64,000 nucleotides of DNA from an uncultured Rubrobacteraceae bacterium (GTDB taxonomy: Bacteria; Actinomycetota; Rubrobacteria; Rubrobacterales; Rubrobacteraceae), in the NCBI GenBank assembly GCA_902806065.1, contig CADCVE010000092.1:1-64000 (forward strand). The letters are read 5' to 3'. Shown in pieces: positions 2,468-34,461 of this stretch; the stretch's first letter is position 1; each line of letters opens with the position of its first letter. A model generated the notes under the pieces. That model searched no databases and was not told where the DNA came from. It saw only the letters and a program-made list of their open reading frames with translations. The position numbers were made by a program, and so were the translations under genes.

Positions 2468-3904
2468 CTAACCGAAGTGCTGACCGTGGAAGCCGAACGG
2501 GATGTGGTGTGGTACCCGCGCCCGCGCCTCCTCGGTGAAAGAGCTTGCGTTCATCACTAGCAAAAAGGAAGTGCCCGCCGCTGTATCGAGGACGACGGAG
2601 AGGATCACGCCGGAGTCCTCGCCCTGACCGTTCGGCGCGGGGATGAAGACGGGCTCGCCGGGATAACAACCGTCCTCGCACCAGGTCCGTGTAGAGCCGT
2701 TGCGGACGTCTACCTTTACGAGCCGATCCGGCCATCCTTGCGTGATCCTGTTCTGGCCGATGCCGTAGACGTAGGAATAGTCGCGGCCGTTATGGGCATC
2801 GTAGTTTATGCGCGGTAGCTCCAGGGGTTCGCCCGTCAGAACCTCGTAGCTCGCGGAGCCACCGGGGCGGAGGCGGTAGCGGCGTAGTTCCGCGGCGGCG
2901 GTAGGGGCTTCGTGCGATAAGAGTGCGTCCATGTAGTGGTCCTGGATCACGGCGTCGTCCGGGTAGGCGAGTAGGTCCACAACGATCTCACCACCCTTCT
3001 CGAAGGCATTGACGTGATGGAAGGCGAAGAACGCCTCCGTCTCCCAACTCCCGACGAGCACACCGCTCTCCTTGTTCACTGCGTGGAAACGAGTCGGCCG
3101 TTCCGGCTTCCATTGAAGGTTCTCGGCGTAGGGTTTGCCGGTCAAGAGCATCTTCGCGGGGTTGACGACCAGCGGGTACTCCGCGAGCACGACGTAGTGT
3201 TTCGTGAGGCCGAAGCTGTGCATGTAGGCGGGCTCGCTCGCTGGTATCTCGGCCATTACCTCTCTGCGGGGCGCACCGGCCTGCGCGGCAATTCGGAAGA
3301 TTTTGTATGAGCAGTGGCGGGAGAAGTGGGTGATGGTGTTGAAGGCCTCGCCGGTCTTCGGGTCGTTATGGGGGTGGGGCGAGGTACCGATGCCTTGAAC
3401 GTTATCCTCGTACTCGATGACGCCGACGGTCTGCAGCGTCTCGGGGTCGAACTCTACCGGCAGGGGCGTCTCGGTGAGGGCGACGAAGCGCCCGGCTAGT
3501 TTGTGAACGCTGACGCTGGCGTTGCTACCGAACTGTGGAGAGAACGCGCTCGTGAGCCGTTTGAAGATCGAACGGCAAGGGTCGGTAGCGAACTCGCCGT
3601 AGCCGATGCGGCCCTTTCTTTGGACGTGGAGGTACTGGGGGCTGCGCAGGTACTTATTGGCGTAGGAGACCCGGCCCCCGTGGAAGCCAAAGCGGTGAAG
3701 CATCGCGAGGCCGTCGAACCAGTGACGCATTCGGGTCCTGCCCGCCCCCCAGGTGCCCGGCCCGTTACGGAAGAGCGTCCCGCGCAGCCACATGGGCATA
3801 CTGCCTTCGACGGGCAGGGCATCTAGCTCGAACTCGCCTTCTAGCGGCGAGAACCCCAGGCGATGATCCGTATTCACCTCACTGTCTTCCACGGAGCCGG
3901 GCAA
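2468..3904 (-). CDS. carotenoid cleavage dioxygenase (RPE65/CCO family)
   Basis: A 478-residue non-haem iron enzyme of the carotenoid oxygenase family, which splits carotenoid or stilbene-type double bonds with oxygen to give aldehydes. The four iron-binding histidines are visible in order: H177 in SPHPHNDP, H229 in YMHSFGLT, H296 or H297 in FAFHHVNAF, and H473 in GFHGQHFG. The N-terminal LRGTLFRNGPG and HWFDGLAMLHRF blocks are also typical. Full family length and no signal peptide, so cytosolic or membrane-associated. It starts 6 bases after the stop of the upstream baeRF-like gene, so the two probably share a transcript. Pigmented Rubrobacter strains make carotenoids; no carotenoid synthesis gene is in the window. 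Confidence 0.93.
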   Translation of the reverse strand: MPGSVEDSEVNTDHRLGFSPLEGEFELDALPVEGSMPMWLRGTLFRNGPGTWGAGRTRMRHWFDGLAMLHRFGFHGGRVSYANKYLRSPQYLHVQRKGRIGYGEFATDPCRSIFKRLTSAFSPQFGSNASVSVHKLAGRFVALTETPLPVEFDPETLQTVGVIEYEDNVQGIGTSPHPHNDPKTGEAFNTITHFSRHCSYKIFRIAAQAGAPRREVMAEIPASEPAYMHSFGLTKHYVVLAEYPLVVNPAKMLLTGKPYAENLQWKPERPTRFHAVNKESGVLVGSWETEAFFAFHHVNAFEKGGEIVVDLLAYPDDAVIQDHYMDALLSHEAPTAAAELRRYRLRPGGSASYEVLTGEPLELPRINYDAHNGRDYSYVYGIGQNRITQGWPDRLVKVDVRNGSTRTWCEDGCYPGEPVFIPAPNGQGEDSGVILSVVLDTAAGTSFLLVMNASSFTEEARARVPHHIPFGFHGQHFG

Positions 3905-3910
3905 CGCCTG

Positions 3911-5104
3911 CTAGTAGCGGAGTAGACCGGCGAACCCCTCGAACTCCTCGCGCAGCACGCTGGCGGCGTCTCTCCGGTTGCGCTCCTTCTCGATGTCCTC
4001 GTTGGGAGTCTCACCGAACTCGTCGCGGTCGCCGCGGACGCTGCCAGTGCGCACGTACTCCAGGCGAGCGCCACGCGCGGTAGCGAGGTCTATGATGACG
4101 TCTGTAAGGTCACGAACCCTCGTGTCCCGGCGGCAGTAGGGGCATTCTTCCTGGGCAATATTGGTGATGGCGAGCTGGTCGTGGTCGCACCAGCGGATCT
4201 CGCCGTTCAGGTCATAGAGGGCGATGAGGTGATAGACCCTACCTTCCTGAAGCGCCTCGATGGTGTCATTGATGCCACGCACCCCATTCTCGCGGGCCTG
4301 CCCGATGAGATCGTCCTCGCGTGCTCTCTCGGCCTTCTGCTGTATCTCCTCGAACTGTTCCAGGATCTCGTTCTCCGGAGCGTTGGCGGCGACCGCCTCC
4401 TCGGCGACTACCTTCTCTTTCACGGGCTCGGGGAGCGTCTCCCGGAAGGTGGAGGTCCTCTCCTTCGGCCCGGCGATAATGAGGTTCTTGACGTTGTCTT
4501 GGGCGACGAGCTTCTGCGTTAGCTCGCCCACATCCTTGTAGAAGCGGTAGATGTTCGAGTCTTGTTTGCGGCCGGCCGGGTCCAGGTCCGTCTGGCCGCC
4601 ACCCCTGGGGTATGGTCTGGAGGGCTTGAGGTCTACCTCGCGGAAGAAGCCGCTGCTCGCGCCGTCGCTGCCCCGCGCGGGATCGCCCATCGGGGCGGAG
4701 ACGAAGAAACGGAACTCCTCCGCGTCTACGAGCGCCACCCCGTAAGACTCGTGCTCGTCGAGCGCCAATATCAGTGGCGCAAGGTACGGCTCCCCGAAGT
4801 GGTAGGCCTCCGGGAGGTCCAACTGCAACTCATAACGCTCGAAAAGACCATCCCCGGCGGCGAAGAAGACCAGGGTGCGCGCGTGCTGATGCACCTGCCC
4901 CTCGATCGAATCCCATACCCGCCCGGAGATCTCCTCCGGCAACTCTTCCATCTCCCTCAAAGCATCCTTCAAGCGCACCTTGTACGCCTGACCCTGGTTC
5001 TCCGGGATCCGGGCATTTACGCTCAAATATACTGAGAGCACCGGCCCCGGATGACCCTCCAAACGCTCCTTGAGCCTCTTTATATCCTCAGCCTGCGCGG
5101 CCAT
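3911..5104 (-). CDS. baeRF/VLRF1-type release-factor-like protein
   Basis: A 397-residue protein with the layout of bacterial archaeo-eukaryotic release factor (baeRF, Vms1-like) families: an N-terminal alpha/beta domain opening PGPVLSVYLSVNARIPENQG, a middle domain (VKNLIIAGPKERTSTF) and a C-terminal L7Ae-like domain with a zinc-knuckle-like CPYC. It ends FEGFAGLLRY, like the GIGALLRY-type tail of this group. Family members act on peptidyl-tRNA in stalled ribosomes or are thought to; whether this one hydrolyses anything is unknown. The ATG follows GAGAGGTGG. It is the first gene of a likely two-gene transcript with the carotenoid oxygenase. Confidence 0.75.
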   Translation of the reverse strand: MAAQAEDIKRLKERLEGHPGPVLSVYLSVNARIPENQGQAYKVRLKDALREMEELPEEISGRVWDSIEGQVHQHARTLVFFAAGDGLFERYELQLDLPEAYHFGEPYLAPLILALDEHESYGVALVDAEEFRFFVSAPMGDPARGSDGASSGFFREVDLKPSRPYPRGGGQTDLDPAGRKQDSNIYRFYKDVGELTQKLVAQDNVKNLIIAGPKERTSTFRETLPEPVKEKVVAEEAVAANAPENEILEQFEEIQQKAERAREDDLIGQARENGVRGINDTIEALQEGRVYHLIALYDLNGEIRWCDHDQLAITNIAQEECPYCRRDTRVRDLTDVIIDLATARGARLEYVRTGSVRGDRDEFGETPNEDIEKERNRRDAASVLREEFEGFAGLLRY

Positions 5105-5244
5105 ACTCCACCTCTCTGATCTATGGAATCGGTCTCATGCCCCCGAGTATTGCCCGAAAGAGCACCGATCTAATATACCAGCGATGAGGTCCTCGATTAT
5201 CGAGGGTACGCAAGGTAGGGTCGGGTGGTAGATTTGGTGGCGTG

Positions 5245-5565
5245 ATGGGACTCGACAGAGAACGCGCTTGGCCAAGGCACGGCCGCCTCTTCGACCAGAT
5301 GGCCGGGACACTATTCCGTCACGATCCCACCGGTACCGCCTTCGAGTACAACCCCGGCGAGTATGAACCGAAGGCAAGCACCATACTGCCGCACCCCGAC
5401 AACGTCTCTTCGCAATACGAGGCCCTCGACACGAGACAAAGAGTTCGTCGAATGACTCTTCGCCAGCAACACGGAGTCGCCAAGACCTGGTACGCGGAGT
5501 TGGCCGCCAAGGTCTGGACGGCGCGGCAACGGTACAAATATTCGTTGGCCTCGGCGCGCGGGTAG
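5245..5565 (+). CDS. hypothetical protein with an FRHDPTG motif
   Basis: A small soluble protein of about 106 residues; a GTG three bases upstream (5242) is an alternative start. The core AGTLFRHDPTGTAFEYNPGE, followed by YEPKASTILP, resembles a short conserved protein of many bacteria with a DPxGINFxxNxDEYxxEVxTILP pattern whose function I do not know. The C-terminal half here (residues 55-106) does not fit that pattern and may be an altered tail. It runs into the next gene with a 9-base gap. Composition is similar to its neighbours. Confidence 0.5.
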   Translation: MGLDRERAWPRHGRLFDQMAGTLFRHDPTGTAFEYNPGEYEPKASTILPHPDNVSSQYEALDTRQRVRRMTLRQQHGVAKTWYAELAAKVWTARQRYKYSLASARG

Positions 5566-5574
5566 CCTCACCGC

Positions 5575-6447
5575 GTGCGCGTCCTGATCTCCGGCTGCGG
5601 ATACGTCGGCTCTGCCCTCGGCCTGTTACTGACCGCCGAGGGACACACCGTCTTCGGCCTCCGCCGCAATACGAAAGCCCTCCCACCCGCCATAAAATCT
5701 ATAAGCGCCGACCTCTCCAAACCCCTGTCACCGGACGCCCTGCCCCCGAACCTCGACGCGGCCGTCCACGCCGTATCTCCCGGCAACTCCAAGGATGAAG
5801 CCTACACGCTCGCCTACACCCAGGGACCGCGAAACCTGCTCGCGGCCCTCGAACCACAGCGGAAGACCCTGCGCTTCATCTTCGTTTCCAGCACCGGCGT
5901 CTACGCCCAGAAAAAAGGTGAATGGGTGGATGAAGACTCCCCCGCAACCCCTGAAACCACCAGCGGCAGGCGTCTCCTCGAAGGCGAACGTCTCGTGCTC
6001 GGCGGCCCCTTCCCCGCGACCGTCCTCCGCCTGGGCGGCATCTACGGCCCCGGCCGCACCAGTACTATAGAACGCGCGCTCCGCACGCTCCGCATAGCGC
6101 CCCAAGAAGACCCGCCCCGGTACACCAACCGCATCCACCGCGACGACTGCGCCGGCGCCCTCCGCCACCTCATCCTCCTGCCCGACCCCGACCCTCTCTA
6201 CCTCGGCGTGGATCACGAACCCGCTACCTTACACACGATCGCCGAATGGCTCGCCGCACGCCCCGACGTTAGCCCCAGTGAGACCGGCACCCCCGCGAGA
6301 ACCACCCCGCAAAATGGCCCCCGCGGCGCTTCACGCTCTCGCACCAACAAACGCTGTAGCAACGCCCGGCTCATCCACTCCGGCTACCGCTTTCTCTACC
6401 CCACCTTCCGCGAAGGCTTCGCCGCGCTGCTCTCCGAAACGCCTTAG
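5575..6447 (+). CDS. NAD(P)-dependent epimerase/dehydratase-like SDR (YeeZ type)
   Basis: A 290-residue extended short-chain dehydrogenase. The Rossmann motif GCGYVGSALG is at residues 7-16 and the active-site region FVSSTGVYAQKKGEW at about 103-117, giving the Ser/Tyr part of the catalytic set. RLGGIYGPGR follows at about 152-161, as in YeeZ-like proteins. Substrate unknown. The GTG start sits 9 bases after the preceding small gene with little space for its own promoter. From about residue 235 the sequence becomes Arg/Ala/Pro-rich and less conserved in appearance, though it remains open and ends YRFLYPTFREGF, a normal family ending. Confidence 0.82.
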   Translation: MRVLISGCGYVGSALGLLLTAEGHTVFGLRRNTKALPPAIKSISADLSKPLSPDALPPNLDAAVHAVSPGNSKDEAYTLAYTQGPRNLLAALEPQRKTLRFIFVSSTGVYAQKKGEWVDEDSPATPETTSGRRLLEGERLVLGGPFPATVLRLGGIYGPGRTSTIERALRTLRIAPQEDPPRYTNRIHRDDCAGALRHLILLPDPDPLYLGVDHEPATLHTIAEWLAARPDVSPSETGTPARTTPQNGPRGASRSRTNKRCSNARLIHSGYRFLYPTFREGFAALLSETP

Positions 6448-24663: not shown

Positions 24664-25269
24664 GTGGGATTGCCGCACAGAGAGCCGCGCCGCGGGCCGT
24701 TCTCCTTCAAGGAGGCTTTTCGGCGATTGATCCGCCCCCTCGCCCGTGCCCTCTCGGCGATGCGGGTCCGCCCGGACGCCCTGACCACTACCGGATGGAC
24801 TCTCGCGGTCGGCGCCGCCGTCCTTCTCGCAGTCGGCTACACCAGGGTTGGCGGCGCCGTGATGCTCCTGGCGGGCCTCTTTGACGCCCTCGACGGCGCG
24901 GTCGCCCGAGAATCGAACCAGATGAGTGACTTCGGGGCCTTTCTGGACTCGACGCTCGACAGGCTCTCCGAGTCCGCGGTCTTTGTCGGTGTGATCTACT
25001 TCTACGCGGCTTCCTCCATGCCCTACGAGGCTCTCCTCGCGGGCGTCGCCATGACCTTCTCGCTCATGACCTCCTATACTCGCGCCCGCGCCGAGGGCCT
25101 GGGCCTGCAATGCGAGGTCGGCCTCCTCGAACGCGCGGGCCGCGTCGTGATCCTCTCCGTATTTTCCATCGCGGGCCAACTGACCATCGGCGTCGCTCTC
25201 GTCGCCGCCGGAGCCCTCGTCACCACCGCCCAACGCTTCCTCCACGTTCGCCGCCATACAAAGACCTGA
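24664..25269 (+). CDS. CDP-alcohol phosphatidyltransferase
   Basis: A 201-residue membrane enzyme that joins a CDP-diacylglycerol-type donor to an alcohol such as inositol phosphate or glycerol phosphate. The diagnostic motif D-x2-DG-x2-AR-x8-G-x3-D-x3-D is complete in DALDGAVARESNQMSDFGAF followed by LDSTLDR (about residues 76-102). About five hydrophobic segments. GTG start 3 bases after the AI-2E gene, probable same transcript. The length and position fit actinobacterial PgsA-like or phosphatidylinositol phosphate synthases; the alcohol acceptor cannot be read from the sequence. Confidence 0.88.
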   Translation: MGLPHREPRRGPFSFKEAFRRLIRPLARALSAMRVRPDALTTTGWTLAVGAAVLLAVGYTRVGGAVMLLAGLFDALDGAVARESNQMSDFGAFLDSTLDRLSESAVFVGVIYFYAASSMPYEALLAGVAMTFSLMTSYTRARAEGLGLQCEVGLLERAGRVVILSVFSIAGQLTIGVALVAAGALVTTAQRFLHVRRHTKT

Positions 25270-25276
25270 AGACGCA

Positions 25277-25819
25277 ATGCCCCGCAAAACCCCCCGCGCC
25301 GCTACGAGCGACTACGAAGCAAAGCTCTCCCAAGAGACCATCCGCCTGGCTGCCCGGTCCACCCGGACAGCCCACACCAGTCCCTCACCTTTCGGCGACC
25401 CCCTCTCCGGCATCACGCTCGTCACTGAGCGGGCCACTGAGGAGGGCGCCCCGGAGATTGAGGCCAGGATGGTCCACGCCCTCCGCCGCAGCCTCGCCGC
25501 CGTAAAGCTCGATAAAGCCTACGTTACCTGGACGCACCCCGATCTCCTCGAAGAGCTGCTCTCCCTGGAACCGTCCGCCCTCGTGGCGGTCGGACCCGGC
25601 GCTGCCCGCGCCATAGACTCCCTCGCCTATCCGCTCGCCAAGGAGCCGTTCTCGGACGCCACAGAGGGCGTCTGGTTCTCCTGGACATACGGCACATTTG
25701 GTCTCAGGCTCCCCGCTCTCGCCCCGGCCCTCACTGACCCCGACGCCAAACGCCAATTCTGGCAAGCCTTCCTCGCTCTGCGCGCCCTCGCCACCGGCGG
25801 GGAACCGGGGCGCCCTTGA
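25277..25819 (+). CDS. hypothetical protein, possible glycosylase-like alpha/beta fold
   Basis: A 180-residue soluble protein I do not recognise with certainty. The middle reads GITLVTERATEEGAP, then AVKLDKAYVTWTHPD and LLSLEPSALVAVGPGAARAI. This layout of strand, helix, strand, with a final ValAlaValGly strand-turn-helix, resembles the uracil-DNA glycosylase superfamily, but no catalytic motif of that superfamily can be pointed to. It starts 7 bases after the CDP-alcohol transferase and its stop overlaps the TTG start of the next gene, so it is inside an operon of membrane genes. Confidence 0.6.
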   Translation: MPRKTPRAATSDYEAKLSQETIRLAARSTRTAHTSPSPFGDPLSGITLVTERATEEGAPEIEARMVHALRRSLAAVKLDKAYVTWTHPDLLEELLSLEPSALVAVGPGAARAIDSLAYPLAKEPFSDATEGVWFSWTYGTFGLRLPALAPALTDPDAKRQFWQAFLALRALATGGEPGRP

Positions 25820-26631
25820 AGATCCGAGACGCGCTGCGTCACACGAAGAGACCCGGGCTCCGGGTTACGACTGTAGGGATGGTTGGCCTCGCGGTCGTAA
25901 TAGCCTTGCTCCCCCTCCTCGGTGAGACGGATACCCTCGCGGAGTTCGTCTCTGCATACGTCATCGTCCTCTTCTTCACGGGCACGTTCCTCTACGGGTT
26001 GCTCGTCCTGGCTGCTGACGTGGCAACACAACGACTCCTTCTTCTCGGAGCCGCCGCCGGGGTCGCGGGTATGGCGGCGGCCTACCTCGGCGGTCGCCCG
26101 GAGACGCTCGTCGAAGGCCCCGCCGCCCTGCCGCTGACACTCCTGTTCCTCGCCGACACTCTCAGGATGGGGGCCGCGGTTTGCGTGGGGCTCGCTCTAG
26201 CCCGACGCGTTACCTCGCCGGGAATAGCCCTCCTCATAGCCGGCCTCGCCACTGCCGCCGACCTCTACAGCTTCCTCGCCGGTCCAACCCAAACCCTCGT
26301 CGAGGGAGGCCCGGACGGAGGCCCGACCCTCTTCGGTCACTTCCTCGGCTACTTGCTCGTTTGGTTCCCAACCTTCGGCTTCCCCCTTGGCTTCGCCCTC
26401 GGTATAAGCGACTTTATTTTTCTGGCTCTCTTCGCCGCTACGTCCGGATACCTCCGCCTGCGTCACCCCCTACCAATCCTCGTCCTCGGATGCGTCGCCG
26501 TCCTTGTCGCCATCCTCACCGGCCTCCTCCTCGAAACCGCCATACCTGCCCTCCCCTTTGTCGCCCTCTCATTCCTGTTCGCCAACGCTCTGCCCTTCTA
26601 TAGGTCCTTCATGAACCACCGCAGTACGTAA
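25816..26631 (+). CDS. polytopic membrane protein, candidate presenilin/SPP-like aspartyl protease
   Basis: A 271-residue protein with about eight or nine membrane segments. Three motifs stand in the order and spacing of GxGD intramembrane aspartyl proteases (presenilin, signal peptide peptidase, archaeal PSH): Asp149 in a membrane segment (ATAADLYSFL), Asp199 in FALGISDFIFLALF (compare GLGDFIFY of presenilin), and P244-A-L in AIPALPFVALSFLF (the PAL motif). The first Asp is normally preceded by Tyr, and GISD replaces GxGD, so activity is unproven. The TTG start overlaps the upstream TGA. A fragment related to its last codons recurs near 28228. Confidence 0.6.
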   Translation: MKIRDALRHTKRPGLRVTTVGMVGLAVVIALLPLLGETDTLAEFVSAYVIVLFFTGTFLYGLLVLAADVATQRLLLLGAAAGVAGMAAAYLGGRPETLVEGPAALPLTLLFLADTLRMGAAVCVGLALARRVTSPGIALLIAGLATAADLYSFLAGPTQTLVEGGPDGGPTLFGHFLGYLLVWFPTFGFPLGFALGISDFIFLALFAATSGYLRLRHPLPILVLGCVAVLVAILTGLLLETAIPALPFVALSFLFANALPFYRSFMNHRST

Positions 26632-26889: not shown

Positions 26890-27462
26890 ATGCCTCTAAG
26901 GGTCAACCCTGTAATCCTTCTCGGTCTTATTATCGGTGTCGTCCTCTCGTTCGCGATCTCGGCGGGCGCCGTACAAATCGGTAACTCGGAAGGCGGACTC
27001 GTACCGGAGGTTCAGCCGCCGACGGACGTTCCGCCGCCAGTGGACGCTCAGCCGCCGATAGAGGGTACGTCGAACGTGCCTCTGGAGCCCGCATTTCAGC
27101 AGCAGGTCGGCGGAGGTGGGGGAGGCGCGGCCCTCGGCGTGGGAGAGGCCCAGTTGGGCAAGCCCTTTGTAATGAGCACTGATGGGCCTGACACGTTCAG
27201 TTGCGTCGGCCTGATGCGCTACATCCTGAGGACCACCGGCGTCGACCCCGACGCGCCGTGGGTACCGGAGGCGTACCTGAGTAAGTACGCTCCCGTCGAT
27301 CCCGCGAACTTGCAGCCCGGAGACATAGTCATCTACCCGAACTGGGCCACAATGTACGCAGGCAACGGCATGCTTCTCAACGCCAACGAGATGGAGGGAG
27401 TCGTTACACATACGCCCATGGACGTCGCTGGCGAACCACTGGGCATCGTGCGTCCCTACTAG
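26890..27462 (+). CDS. NlpC/P60-like exported protein with altered active site
   Basis: A 190-residue protein with a signal sequence (ILLGLIIGVVLSFAISAGAV), a Pro-rich linker with a PPTDVPPPVDAQPP run, and a C-terminal domain of about 110 residues like NlpC/P60 cysteine peptidases. Cys105 in TFSCVGLMRYIL occupies the nucleophile place. In the later block GDIVIYPNWATMYAGNGMLL the histidine that should precede the GIYIG-like strand is replaced by Ala (about residue 153). It may bind wall peptides without cutting them. Its N-terminus is nearly the same as that of the 772-residue protein at 28490, showing duplication. Ribosome binding site TAAGGAGC. Confidence 0.75.
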   Translation: MPLRVNPVILLGLIIGVVLSFAISAGAVQIGNSEGGLVPEVQPPTDVPPPVDAQPPIEGTSNVPLEPAFQQQVGGGGGGAALGVGEAQLGKPFVMSTDGPDTFSCVGLMRYILRTTGVDPDAPWVPEAYLSKYAPVDPANLQPGDIVIYPNWATMYAGNGMLLNANEMEGVVTHTPMDVAGEPLGIVRPY

Positions 27463-28489: not shown

Positions 28490-30808
28490 ATGCCTCGAAG
28501 GGTTAGGCTTGTAATACTTTTCGGTCTTGTTGTGGTTGTAGTACTCTCGTTTGGGATCTCGGCTGCCGCCGCTCCCGAAGATATTGGCGTACCCGAGAGC
28601 GTGGTCGTGCCGAAGGAGAGTACTGTGACGGTTAGTCCTCCTGTGGAGGATGCCGTGCCCGTGCAGACCAATGCGCCCACGCCAGCCCCCGTACCTACTG
28701 AGGCCGCCCCACCATCCGCGCCGGCGGTTCAGCAGGATGAGGGCGGTGTGACGGATCAGGGCGATGCCTCGGAGGAAGTCGTGCCGAGCGAGACTACGAC
28801 TGCTCAGGAGAAAAGTGCTGCTCCGGACGGGGCTACAGCGCCTACGACCAGGGAGACTGGCGAGGAATCCGCCTCTGAGGACTCTGACTCCGGGGAAGAT
28901 GCCGCGCTGGAGGAGACTGCTTCGGAGGAGACTGCTTCGGAGGAGACTGCTTCAGAGGAGACTGCTTCGGAGGAGACTGCTTCGGAGGAGACCGCCCCCG
29001 AGGAGATGGCTACATTGGTAGATGAGGGAGGCGTCGAGGAGCCTGAGGTTGTAGAGATCGAGGAGGCGGGCGAGGCTTTCGAGGAGATATTGAGTGAGGC
29101 TGAAGTCGCGGACGGAGCGTACAAGAACGCGCTCTCCGAAGAGAATCAACTTAACAACGAGATAGCCAGGACCAGGGCGGATCTTACGTCTGCGGAGGAC
29201 AGCCTCGACGAGGCTCAGGAGAGCCTCGATGACCGGGCGTCGCAGATCTACAAGCACGGCCAGGACGATTATTTGAGCGTCCTTCTCGAAGCCAGGGACT
29301 TCCGCCAGTTCGCGAACCTGTTGGACTTCTGGATGCAGCTCCTGGAGGAGGACCAGGATCAGGTCCAGGGTTGGCGCGAAAGTAAGGAAGACCTCGAACA
29401 AACCACGAACGAGCTCGAGATGCAGCTTCAGAGTTGGGAGGCGACTCGCGAAGAGGCGAGCGACAAGAAGGAGCAAGCCGAGACCCGTATCGAGGAGGCC
29501 CAGGAATTCTTCGCCTCACTCGACGAGGAGGCCCAGGAAGAGATCGAGGAGCAGCGCGTCAGTGAGGCGCAGCTCGCCCTGGATCACGCCGAGAAGCTGA
29601 TCCAGGAAGCCGCGCAGGACATGCCAGCCGAAGACACAACGCCGCCGGAGAACGAGATTGGCGACGAGCAGACCCGCCCGGCAGAGGAAGTAAACCCCGA
29701 CGAGACGGAGGGCAACGAGCAAGCCCTTCCAGCCGAAGCGGAGAACACCGAAAGTGCCGCTCAGGACGAGCAGGCCGGTGGAGCCGAACAGGAGAATATC
29801 GACAGGGCAATGCAAGACGAGCAGGCTCGTGTGGCTGAAGTGGAGAAGGCGCCCGAGAGGAACCCGGAGGAGGAACAGGTCCGTAAGGTCGAGGTTGCCC
29901 AGGCAGTCTCCGACACGATCCGCGAATGGCCTGTCGTGAAGGAGCAGGGCAAGATGCCCGAGCAGATAGTGGACGAGACCGCGGACAAGCAGCCGGACAC
30001 AGCGAAGGAGGCTGGCGAGGTACCGGCTCAGAATCCTGTGGCGGGTCAACTGGCTGCGGCGGCGGAGAAGCAGGCGGAGGCCCAGGATGAGGCCAGGCAG
30101 GCCGCCGAGCAGACCGCCAAAGAGAAGCAAGCTCAGGAGGAAGCCGCAGCGCGGGCCGAGGAGGCCGAGGAGGCCAAGCAGGCCGCCGAGAAGGCCCCGG
30201 AGGCGGAGAAAGAGGCGGCTCAGTCCGCGGCGGAAGAGGCGCGGCGTCAAGCCGAGTTTGCCGCCGAGTTCGCCGTCGAGGAGAAGCAAGGCGCGGAGGA
30301 GATCGCCAAGCGGGCTCTCGAGAAGTTGACCTCCGCGGAGGAAGAAATGAACACGGCGCAGATGACCGCGGAGCAAGCCGCCGCCAACAACCCGCTCGTC
30401 CCGAAGCCGGGCGCCATCGGGTCCAAGACCCTTCCGGTGGGGTCTGGCGGCGGGGTGCTAGGCGAGGCCAAGACCTGGCTGGGCGTACCGTATGACTACT
30501 CGCACTCCGCCGGCATGACGCGCAAGGCGGTAGACTGCTCCGCCTTTACCGCGGCGGTCTACTCGAAGTTCGGTATCACGCTGCCGGACTCGCCCATCAG
30601 GCAACTCGGGATGGGTGTTCCGGTCTCCGGACCGGCCCAGGCCGGCGACCTGGTCTTCTTTGACGAGAACGGCGGCGGCGCCCCGACCCATGTCGGCATA
30701 GCCAACGGCGACGGTACACTCACTCACTCCTCGGACTTTACCGGTGAGGTCAGCGTAACCGACATGAAATACATCAACGGCTACATGGGCGCCAGGAGGC
30801 TGATCTAG
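28490..30808 (+). CDS. large NlpC/P60 endopeptidase with coiled coils
   Basis: A 772-residue exported cell-wall hydrolase. Signal sequence LVILFGLVVVVVLSFGISAA (about 7-26); Pro/Thr/Glu-rich region to residue 190 containing the EETAS repeats; coiled coil of about 190-350 (QLNNEIARTRADLTSAEDSL and onward) like RipA/PcsB-type hydrolases; a second long Ala/Glu/Lys coiled coil (about 480-640); and the NlpC/P60 domain at the C-terminus. Its Cys lies in KAVDCSAFTAAVYSKFG and its His in APTHVGIANGDGTLTH. It should cut D-Glu-diaminopimelate-type bonds at division or growth sites, with the coiled coil as regulator. Followed by a strong terminator. Confidence 0.9.
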   Translation: MPRRVRLVILFGLVVVVVLSFGISAAAAPEDIGVPESVVVPKESTVTVSPPVEDAVPVQTNAPTPAPVPTEAAPPSAPAVQQDEGGVTDQGDASEEVVPSETTTAQEKSAAPDGATAPTTRETGEESASEDSDSGEDAALEETASEETASEETASEETASEETASEETAPEEMATLVDEGGVEEPEVVEIEEAGEAFEEILSEAEVADGAYKNALSEENQLNNEIARTRADLTSAEDSLDEAQESLDDRASQIYKHGQDDYLSVLLEARDFRQFANLLDFWMQLLEEDQDQVQGWRESKEDLEQTTNELEMQLQSWEATREEASDKKEQAETRIEEAQEFFASLDEEAQEEIEEQRVSEAQLALDHAEKLIQEAAQDMPAEDTTPPENEIGDEQTRPAEEVNPDETEGNEQALPAEAENTESAAQDEQAGGAEQENIDRAMQDEQARVAEVEKAPERNPEEEQVRKVEVAQAVSDTIREWPVVKEQGKMPEQIVDETADKQPDTAKEAGEVPAQNPVAGQLAAAAEKQAEAQDEARQAAEQTAKEKQAQEEAAARAEEAEEAKQAAEKAPEAEKEAAQSAAEEARRQAEFAAEFAVEEKQGAEEIAKRALEKLTSAEEEMNTAQMTAEQAAANNPLVPKPGAIGSKTLPVGSGGGVLGEAKTWLGVPYDYSHSAGMTRKAVDCSAFTAAVYSKFGITLPDSPIRQLGMGVPVSGPAQAGDLVFFDENGGGAPTHVGIANGDGTLTHSSDFTGEVSVTDMKYINGYMGARRLI
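28910..28999 (+). repeat. six 15-base tandem repeats coding EETAS
   Basis: Six head-to-tail copies of GAGGAGACTGCTTCG encode Glu-Glu-Thr-Ala-Ser; the first five are identical but for one third-position change, and the last has diverged (GACCGCCCCC). They lie in the linker after the signal sequence of the 772-residue hydrolase. Near-identity at DNA level implies recent expansion and likely length variation between strains. Confidence 0.9.
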
Positions 30809-31702: not shown

Positions 31703-32953
31703 TTGCTACAGCGGGTAAATGCGGGCAACAAGTCTCTGGCCGACTATCGCAGCATAATCCGGCGGGAGCTCTACGAAGAGCTACAAGACCTTTCGGAACG
31801 CCTGAAAGGGGTACGGGTCCTCCACATAAACGCTACCAGCTTCGGCGGGGGCGTCGCGGAGATCCTGTACACTCTGGTGCCACTTATGCGCGACGCAGGG
31901 CTTGATGCGGAGTGGGGCGTGATGTTTGGGGCGGAGCCCTTCTTTAACGTCACCAAGAACTTCCACAATGCCCTACAGGGAGCTCCATACGAGTTGACCC
32001 TGGAGGACCGGGCGATCTACGAAGAGTACAATCGCCAGTCGGCGGCGGCTCTGGCCGAATCATCCGAAGAGTGGGACATAATGTTCGTGCATGACCCGCA
32101 ACCGGCTCTGTTGAAGCACTTCTCGGGCGGGCTCTCGCCGCGGACGAAGTGGATATGGCGATGTCACATAGATACCTCCACCCCGAACCGGGAGGTCTTT
32201 GACTACCTCTCCCCTTACGTGGCGGATTACGACGCTCAGATCTACACGATGCGGGAGTACACCCCGCCAGACGTCCATCTGCCCGGGCTCGTCATCATCC
32301 CGCCGGCCATAGACCCGCTCTCACCCAAGAACATGGCCCTCTCGTCCGACGACGCCCGCTACATCACCAACCAGTTCGGGATCGACCCCGAAAGACCCTT
32401 TCTCGTGCAGGTCTCCCGCTTCGACCCGTGGAAGGATCCTCTGGGAGTCATAGACGTCTACCGTCTGGTGAAGGAGGAGATCCCGGATATACAGTTGGTG
32501 CTTATAGGCTCGATGGCCCATGACGACCCCGAGGGTTGGGACTACTGGTACAAGACTGTCAACTACGCTTCGGGGGACCGGGATATCTTCCTCTTCTCCA
32601 ACCTCACCAACGTTGGCTCCATCGAAGTGAACGCGTTCCAGTCCGTGGCCGACGTAGTGATCCAGAAATCCATCCGCGAGGGCTTCGGGCTCGTGGTAAC
32701 AGAGGCGCTGTGGAAAGCACGCCCCCTGGTCGCCGGCAGGGTCGGCGGCATCCCGATGCAGGTCGAAGGGGGTGGCGGCATCCTCATAGACGATGTTCCC
32801 GCGGCGGCGGCGGCCTGCGTCAAGATCCTCAAAGACCAGGACTTCGCGCGCCAGATGGGCAGGTCCGGCAAGGAGCACGTTCGGCAACACTATCTCACCC
32901 CCCGGCTCCTGCGTGACGACCTGAAACTCTTCGCCAACCTGCTTGGAGCGTAG
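31703..32953 (+). CDS. treT: trehalose synthase TreT (GT4 glycosyltransferase)
   Basis: A 416-residue retaining glycosyltransferase that makes trehalose from a nucleoside-diphosphate glucose and glucose, reversibly. It shows HINATSFGGGVAEIL near the N-terminus, WRCHIDTSTPN, VQVSRFDPWKDPLGVIDVY (the sugar-nucleotide phosphate site) and REGFGLVVTEALWKARPLV (E-x7-E). These fit TreT of Pyrococcus, Thermoproteus and Rubrobacter. TTG start after GGGGAGAGC. The GT20 gene begins 2 bases after it, so both are one transcript. Cytosolic; product is a compatible solute against heat, salt and drying. Confidence 0.92.
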   Translation: MLQRVNAGNKSLADYRSIIRRELYEELQDLSERLKGVRVLHINATSFGGGVAEILYTLVPLMRDAGLDAEWGVMFGAEPFFNVTKNFHNALQGAPYELTLEDRAIYEEYNRQSAAALAESSEEWDIMFVHDPQPALLKHFSGGLSPRTKWIWRCHIDTSTPNREVFDYLSPYVADYDAQIYTMREYTPPDVHLPGLVIIPPAIDPLSPKNMALSSDDARYITNQFGIDPERPFLVQVSRFDPWKDPLGVIDVYRLVKEEIPDIQLVLIGSMAHDDPEGWDYWYKTVNYASGDRDIFLFSNLTNVGSIEVNAFQSVADVVIQKSIREGFGLVVTEALWKARPLVAGRVGGIPMQVEGGGGILIDDVPAAAAACVKILKDQDFARQMGRSGKEHVRQHYLTPRLLRDDLKLFANLLGA

Positions 32954-32955
32954 TA

Positions 32956-34461
32956 GTGACGGCACGGGCTGAAGGCAACCCGAAAGCGGATGGAGAGATG
33001 CGGCTCGTAATAGTCTCCAACCGCGGGCCGGTAACCTTCTCCCGTGACGACTCGGGGGGACGCGAGCACTCTCGTGGGGCTGGTGGTCTCGTCACGGCGC
33101 TGAACGCCGTAATGCGCCGCGAGGAGGAGGCCGTCTGGATCGCCTCTGCCCAGAGCGAAGAGGACGCTCGTGTAGCCGCGGAGAGTCGCGAGGCGCCCTA
33201 TGAGGTCGAGGGGCTGAAGGTCGTCCTCGTCGAGCACGACGAAGAGGCTTACGAGCTCATGTACAACCACCTCGCCAACCCCCTGCTCTGGTTCGTGCAT
33301 CACGGCCTCTACGACCTCCCGTACGCCCCCGAGCTCGGCGACGAGACCAGACGGGCCTGGGAGGAGGGCTACGTTCCCGTAAACGAGAACTTCGCCGAAG
33401 CTGTCGCGCGTACGCTCGAAGCCTCTGACGGCGGAGCCGGGGATGAGACGGTGATCCTCGTCCACGACTACCAGCTCTACATGACTCCACTCTACCTTCG
33501 AGAACGCCTCGGTGAGGATGCCTTCATCTCCGTCTTCATCCATATCCCCTGGCCCGAGCCCGAAGGGTGGCGCATCCTGCCTGTTTACGCGCGGGAGGGG
33601 ATATTGAGGAGCCTGCTACAGGCTGACATAGTCGCCTTCCATACCAGGGGCTACGCTCGGAGCTTTATCCGCACGGTTCGAGAGGTGCTCGGCGTCGAGG
33701 TCGACGAGGAGGAGGGGGTGGTCCGGACCGAGGGAGGCCGCGAGGTGTGGGTGCGCGCGTATCCCATCTCCATAGACCCCAGGGAGTTCGAGGACCTCGC
33801 GCGGAGCGAAGAGGTCGAGAATGAAGAGGAGCGCATCGAGGATCTACCCGGCAAGCTGCTGTTGCGCGTGGACCGCATAGACCTCTCCAAGAACATTGTT
33901 CGTGGATTCCACTCCTATGACCGCATGCTCCAACAGCACCCCGAGATGCGGGAGCAGGTTACCTTTCTCGCCCGCCTCCAGCCCTCACGCGAGGACATCC
34001 CCGAGTACGCCGCATACGCTGAGGCTATTCAGGAGACCGTGGACCAAGTCAACAAGAAGTATGGCACGGGCTCCTGGGAGCCTATCGTGCTCTCGATGGA
34101 GGACAACTTCCCCTTCTCCGTCGCCGCCTACAAGAACTACGACGTCCTACTCGTCAACGCCGTCCGCGACGGCATGAACCTCATCGCCAAAGAGGCCGTC
34201 GTCGTCAACGAGAAGGATGGGGTCCTGATCCTTTCCGAGAACGCCGGCGCCCACGAGGAGCTCGGCGAACATGCCCTCACTGTCAACCCCTATGACATAG
34301 ACGAGCAGGCCGGTGCCCTCTACGAAGCCCTGACCATGTCCGACGACGAACGTGCCCGCCGCGTCGAGGCCCTACAGAGCACCATCCGGTCCAATACCAT
34401 AGAAGAGTGGGTGGAGGCGCAGCTCAAAGACATAGCTGCTCATGGGAAACGGCGCGGCTGA
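32956..34461 (+). CDS. otsA: trehalose-6-phosphate synthase (GT20, OtsA-like)
   Basis: A GT20 enzyme of up to 501 residues (487 from ATG 32998, which begins MRLVIVSNRGPVTF). It should join glucose-6-phosphate to UDP- or other NDP-glucose. Visible blocks are NRGPVTF, ILVHDYQLYMTPLYLRE, FIHIPWPEPEGW, LLRVDRIDLSKNIVRGF and VNAVRDGMNLIAKEAV. VDRIDLSKNI instead of VDRLDYTKGI is a common actinobacterial variant. No phosphatase (OtsB) is next to it. The GTG is 2 bases after treT. A glucosylglycerol-phosphate synthase role is a less likely alternative. Confidence 0.88.
   Translation: MTARAEGNPKADGEMRLVIVSNRGPVTFSRDDSGGREHSRGAGGLVTALNAVMRREEEAVWIASAQSEEDARVAAESREAPYEVEGLKVVLVEHDEEAYELMYNHLANPLLWFVHHGLYDLPYAPELGDETRRAWEEGYVPVNENFAEAVARTLEASDGGAGDETVILVHDYQLYMTPLYLRERLGEDAFISVFIHIPWPEPEGWRILPVYAREGILRSLLQADIVAFHTRGYARSFIRTVREVLGVEVDEEEGVVRTEGGREVWVRAYPISIDPREFEDLARSEEVENEEERIEDLPGKLLLRVDRIDLSKNIVRGFHSYDRMLQQHPEMREQVTFLARLQPSREDIPEYAAYAEAIQETVDQVNKKYGTGSWEPIVLSMEDNFPFSVAAYKNYDVLLVNAVRDGMNLIAKEAVVVNEKDGVLILSENAGAHEELGEHALTVNPYDIDEQAGALYEALTMSDDERARRVEALQSTIRSNTIEEWVEAQLKDIAAHGKRRG

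Follow-up and report, generated by a model that had tools for sequence, protein, structure and literature searches.

The window analysed here, a 64,000-nucleotide stretch from an uncultured Rubrobacteraceae bacterium, encodes a polytopic membrane protein that is probably a bacterial intramembrane aspartyl protease. Sequence profiles and a predicted structure make it a relative of presenilin and signal peptide peptidase (SPP), by descent and, probably, in fold. Presenilin is the membrane-embedded protease behind Alzheimer's amyloid. The presenilin/SPP-like ancestry had been proposed in the initial annotation and is borne out by profile searches, by an independent fold search, and by catalytic residues that are invariant across two phyla. 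In the literature searched, presenilin/SPP enzymes are described from eukaryotes and archaea. This search was incomplete and returned no description of a bacterial presenilin/SPP family, and prior notice of one is possible; a review mentions 'the bacterial presenilin homologue' in passing, with no family described (PMC8396450).

Gene, protein and catalytic motifs

The TTG start of the presenilin-like gene overlaps the stop codon of the gene upstream as TTGA. The key residues lie where the initial annotation placed them, with Asp149 in AADLYS, Asp199 in GISDFIF, and PAL at residues 244-246 within PALP (Table 1). Taken singly, the protein has no match among Pfam, NCBIfam or PHROGs models, and single-sequence searches of Pfam, NCBIfam and the PDB (phmmer), together with the first genome-contig searches, gave nothing useful. 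A phosphoribosylaminoimidazole carboxylase, found at E 0.13 by PDB phmmer, was set aside as a chance match. Relatives were reached only through a search of genomes of the same class and through family profiles.

Table 1. Features of the presenilin-like gene and its immediate neighbours in the window.
Feature	Coordinates	Strand	Remarks
CDP-alcohol phosphatidyltransferase, upstream	24664..25269	+	PF01066 E 1.7e-15; conserved neighbour in Rubrobacter
Divergent uracil-DNA glycosylase (UDG) family-4-like gene, overlapping upstream	25277..25819	+	PF03167 in homologues; type-4 UDG structures
Presenilin/SPP-like intramembrane aspartyl protease homologue	25816..26631	+	271 aa, TTG start
Asp149 codon, first catalytic Asp candidate	26260..26262	+	Asp in 95/95 members; equivalent to PS1 D257
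Gly156-Pro157-Thr158, GPT after first Asp	26281..26289	+	G 93/95, P 78/95; aligns with presenilin GP
Predicted beta-hairpin, residues 181-186 and 189-196, directly before second-Asp helix	26356..26403	+	AlphaFold2 model, DSSP
Gly196-Ile-Ser-Asp199, candidate second catalytic Asp, GxSD variant of GxGD	26401..26412	+	G196 and D199 95/95
PALP motif, Pro244-Pro247	26545..26556	+	P244 92/95, L246 91/95
NlpC/P60 protein, downstream	26890..27462	+	PF00877 E 6e-7

A family with invariant aspartates

A single-sequence search of the class found homologues of the protein in 13 of 39 genomes of Rubrobacteria; in two cases the homologue is a short fragment. A 10-sequence profile extended the family to Thermoleophilia, Armatimonadetes, Abditibacteriaceae, Zipacnadia and WS1 MAGs, and a 16-sequence profile matched 28 of 396 sampled Actinomycetota genomes and 257 of 291 Armatimonadota genomes. 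Relatives were absent from the viral contigs and plasmids searched. A3, a set made up mostly of Actinomycetota, overlaps by three members with A4, which holds Armatimonadota and their relatives; the two align profile to profile at probability 100 and E 2.9e-42. Some Armatimonadota genomes (G396, G398, G406) carry two paralogues of the gene. At two Actinomycetota loci (L147, 4673-6214, and L025), about 270 residues continue in frame after the presenilin-like domain; by eye these have the look of a SAM-binding enzyme (IVGAGNCDDVPL), for which Pfam gave no confirming family.

Asp149, Gly196, Asp199 and Phe202 are invariant in all 95 homologues, and Gly156 (93), Pro244 (92) and Leu246 (91) are nearly so. 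Because the catalytic positions are invariant across this set, the motif match exceeds what chance would produce. The two departures from the presenilin/SPP pattern that had been noted earlier are real. The residue before Asp149 is Ala148 here and V, A, I, F, S, T or M across the 95 members, never Tyr, while GISD stands in place of GxGD. Position 198, directly before Asp199, is occupied by Gly in 49 members, Ala in 24, Ser in 15, Thr in four and Pro in three. Canonical GxGD, found in those 49 of 95, is confined within the tree set to Armatimonadota (38 of 57 sequences). The 20 Actinomycetota sequences of the same tree form one clade under midpoint rooting (support 0.997), none of them has GxGD, and one lineage has GPPD. 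The likeness of GISDFIF and PALP to presenilin's GLGDFIF and PALP was also pointed out previously, and one Armatimonadota member has GLGDFIF itself. The GISD of this protein is accordingly a lineage-specific form; elsewhere in the family the motif reads GLGDFIF.

The same clade raises the question whether these proteins cut at all. The presenilin fold could have outlived its catalytic role and now serve to bind or chaperone transmembrane helices, on the pattern of inactive rhomboids, and an Actinomycetota lineage with neither the Tyr before the first Asp nor the Gly before the second, GPPD included, is what such a role might leave behind. We consider this decidedly unlikely: members diverge to 14-25% identity and still retain both aspartates in 95 of 95 cases, whereas pseudoproteases usually lose their catalytic residues. 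Furthermore, in archaeal PSH a Gly-to-Ala exchange at the GxGD glycine slows proteolysis without abolishing it (PMC2947513). Since PSH with this exchange keeps activity and half of the family naturally lacks that Gly, Ser at this position probably makes the enzyme slower without inactivating it. The presenilin-like protein is probably an active intramembrane protease.

Sequence homology to presenilin

Searched against the PDB, the 32-sequence profile A3 matched presenilin-2 at E 2.1e-9 and presenilin-1 at E 2.7e-9. The best eight distinct sequences were all presenilins, and the next match followed at E 0.14. The alignment consists of two collinear stretches, one for each Asp region. In the first, the family profile reads DlfSVfaGPTkklvee, and the Asp149 region is aligned with the YDLVAVL region of presenilin-2. 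In the second, LGvsDfiFlALF...lPALP of the family is set against LGLGDFIFYSVL...LPALP of presenilin. The result is not peculiar to one profile: among smaller or wider profiles, the 10-sequence profile A1 already had presenilin-1 as its top PDB match (E 0.0014), the Armatimonadota profile A4 placed presenilins first (E 4.4e-5), and so did profiles A2 and A6. A control profile, built from the polytopic AI-2E transporter of the same loci, recovered TqsA, the solved relative of that transporter, and did not match presenilin.

Family models of the known groups reach these proteins poorly. At the PF01080 cut-off this protein has no match, and the best family member reaches E 0.054. PF06550 has no match in this genome, in a search that does find Haloferax and Methanosarcina, and PF04258 gave a single match in the Armatimonadota set, at E 0.43. 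A search of genomes with PF01080 gave no match, and its control gave none either. Archaeal PSH was absent from the PDB matches of the family profiles.

Predicted structure

An AlphaFold2 model computed from 32 sequences (pLDDT 91.6, pTM 0.89) superseded a first model from 10 sequences (pLDDT 78), for which human SPPL2a had appeared at Foldseek rank 7. The model has eight membrane helices, against the nine expected of the presenilin/SPP superfamily. The A3 profile alignment begins near presenilin TM2, and Armatimonadota members have an additional hydrophobic segment at the C-terminal end. In the model, D149 lies near the C-terminal end of helix 5 (residues 135-154), D199 is the third residue of helix 6 (197-212), and PALP (244-247) is at the start of helix 8 (246-256), so that the PAL motif stands before the last core helix. 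The two aspartates are predicted to sit in adjacent core helices at the same membrane face, and not on different sides of the membrane, a placement on which the initial annotation would have given up the assignment.

The structure comparison that had been suggested alongside it likewise favours presenilin. Foldseek ranks 1-14 against the PDB are all presenilins, with probability 1.00 for ranks 1-10; after the presenilins come unrelated proteins at 0.06 or below and archaeal PSH (4hyg) at rank 17 with probability 0.30. In a viral library one match stands out, a signal peptide peptidase of Megaviridae at probability 0.90; all others are at 0.12 or less. Global superposition on presenilin is weak, with TM-scores of 0.27-0.43 and rmsd values of 15-20 Å.

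TM-scores below 0.5, and the lack of a significant Pfam match for single members, would fit an unrelated polytopic membrane protein, a transporter or similar, that had come by D...GxxD...PAL through convergence. Such an origin is highly improbable, as the profile match at E 2e-9 is to presenilins only and the control profile is negative, the fold ranking is exclusive in two libraries, and the family holds a GLGDFIF sequence. Common ancestry with presenilin and SPP remains the reading that we adopt below.

Predicted membrane orientation and proposed mechanism

The active site of SPP opens outward, and presenilin has the opposite topology. Averaged over 32 sequences, the net charge is +1.66 at the N terminus and +1.03 at the C terminus. 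For the loops, the corresponding averages are -0.72 (1-2), -0.53 (3-4), +0.59 (4-5), -0.53 (the catalytic loop 5-6) and +2.35 (6-7), with the 2-3 and PAL loops about neutral. A 1044-residue fusion from Armatimonadota (locus L140 of genome G616, 2921-6055, minus strand) consists, in order, of a CarboxypepD_reg-like domain, a transmembrane helix, a presenilin-like domain in which GWGDFVF and PALP are present, and an extended C-terminal region of unassigned family. Its CarboxypepD_reg domain, seen in this one protein, scores E 4.7e-6, below the Pfam cut-off; were it to lie outside, the protease domain would begin inside. Together, the charge pattern and this fusion indirectly suggest an SPP-like arrangement, with both termini in and the active site opening outward.

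By analogy with presenilin and PSH biochemistry, the two aspartates would activate water and cut a single transmembrane helix, and the substrate may then be trimmed sequentially. Presenilin with bound substrate is characterised by a strand directly ahead of the GxGD helix. The hybrid beta-sheet has been described (PMC10290658). We postulate that a substrate helix would likewise unwind here and pair with the predicted beta-hairpin before the second Asp. Because the predicted orientation is SPP-like, with the active site outward, substrates would be N-in helices; our best guess is that these are leftover signal peptides after signal peptidase, or small membrane proteins.

Relationship to known proteases

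The closest resemblance is to presenilin-1 and -2 (PF01080, MEROPS A22A), which share the order Asp, GxxDF(I/V)F, PALP, the GP(T/L)xxLVE stretch after the first Asp, a Foldseek probability of 1.00, and a similar distance from the second Asp to PAL (45 residues here, 48 in PS1 from D385 to P433). In contrast to presenilin, the protein lacks the Tyr of YD, has GxSD, and falls below PF01080 detection. It has no long endoproteolysed loop, the two aspartates being 50 residues apart versus 128 in presenilin, and with eight helices it appears to miss presenilin TM1, in an orientation predicted to be inverted. The partners of presenilin in gamma-secretase, namely nicastrin, APH-1 and PEN-2, are known from eukaryotes. 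Archaeal PSH (MCMJR1; PF06550) is likewise prokaryotic and stand-alone, appears among the fold matches, and has a short inter-Asp spacing of 58 residues (D162, D220; PMC2947513), whereas its YD and GxGD are intact and PF06550 does not detect the presenilin-like protein. SPP and SPP-like proteases (PF04258, A22B) resemble it in the predicted orientation, in the short loop, and through the SPPL2a and viral SPP fold matches; they differ in that the motifs here are nearer to presenilin and YD is absent. A kinship with GxGD proteases of another kind, the prepilin and preflagellin peptidases (A24, FlaK), is scarcely credible. These too are polytopic prokaryotic enzymes with a GxGD aspartate, but no prepilin peptidase model in Pfam or NCBIfam matches, FlaK is absent among the fold matches listed, and PALP and GPT match presenilin, while A24 enzymes are not known to have a PAL motif.

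Measured against family A22 (clan AD), the protein is homologous in sequence to known members, and both YD and GxGD fail in it. For this reason we regard it as part of a distinct bacterial branch within the presenilin/SPP superfamily. By the strict motif definition it is outside A22, and on its sequence it is best called a member of a bacterial sister family of presenilin/SPP.

With a bacterial family as prevalent as this one is in Armatimonadota, the protease fold linked to Alzheimer's would have a wider known range, and bacterial intramembrane proteolysis would gain an aspartyl class alongside its rhomboids and site-2 proteases. Small single-chain enzymes that vary naturally at the Gly (PS1 G384) that presenilin function requires would become available, and the origin of eukaryotic presenilin and SPP would be reopened. 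It is conceivable, if rather doubtful, that proteases of the presenilin type go far back in bacteria as a family and that eukaryotic presenilin is closer to this family than to archaeal PSH, and possibly of bacterial rather than archaeal source.

Genomic neighbourhood

The initial annotation had coupled the gene to a possible glycosylase-fold protein, and the overlapping upstream gene is indeed related to family-4 uracil-DNA glycosylases: PF03167 is found in seven of 14 aligned homologues (best E 1.2e-12), and the profile matches type-4 UDG structures at E 4.5e-9. Its motifs are eroded, and it is possibly no longer a glycosylase. This gene also precedes the presenilin-like gene in distant Actinomycetota, at all nine loci of the cluster; two of these nine represent one and the same region. 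A strong UDG-like match occurs in nearly all Rubrobacteria, with or without the presenilin-like gene. The cell-wall hydrolases announced downstream correspond to two NlpC/P60-type genes, the first recognised by Pfam and the second by eye.

The syntenic locus of six Rubrobacteria genomes keeps the UDG-like gene and has nothing matching the presenilin-like gene; an NlpC/P60-type homologue follows the UDG-like gene in five of the six. The presenilin-like gene thus seems dispensable in several complete sister genomes. An envelope protease, as suggested earlier from these neighbours, is a weak proposal, since sister genomes that lack the presenilin-like gene still have both the glycosylase-like and the NlpC genes; on the same ground we do not accept a link to them.

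In Armatimonadota, a leucyl-tRNA synthetase gene lies 18-132 nt downstream on the same strand at six loci (L133, L134, L137, L138, L026, L027), as measured with mechanically set ORF starts. We weighed, and did not accept, a functional link to leucyl-tRNA synthetase, to inositol-lipid genes, to the UDG-like gene or to the cell-wall hydrolases, since the linkage differs between phyla. The neighbours name no substrate.

Several further features of these loci were recorded. Five Actinomycetota loci (L148, L149, L144, L147, L151) have glycosyltransferase genes upstream of the UDG-like gene and its presenilin-like neighbour; scanned in two cases, these proved to be PHP-domain fusions, and at L149 myo-inositol-1-phosphate synthase is upstream as well. 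In Rubrobacter marinus (L150/L020), which also has the presenilin-like gene, the CDP-alcohol phosphatidyltransferase match is split over three frames, suggesting frameshifts or sequencing errors. Farther downstream in the window, positions 28490-30808 encode a coiled-coil-like protein of 772 residues; by eye its C-terminal end is NlpC/P60-like, and EETAS is repeated in a run near the N terminus. At 31703-34461, a glycosyltransferase ORF is followed by an OtsA-like trehalose-6-phosphate synthase ORF (by eye), an arrangement kept downstream in Rubrobacter.
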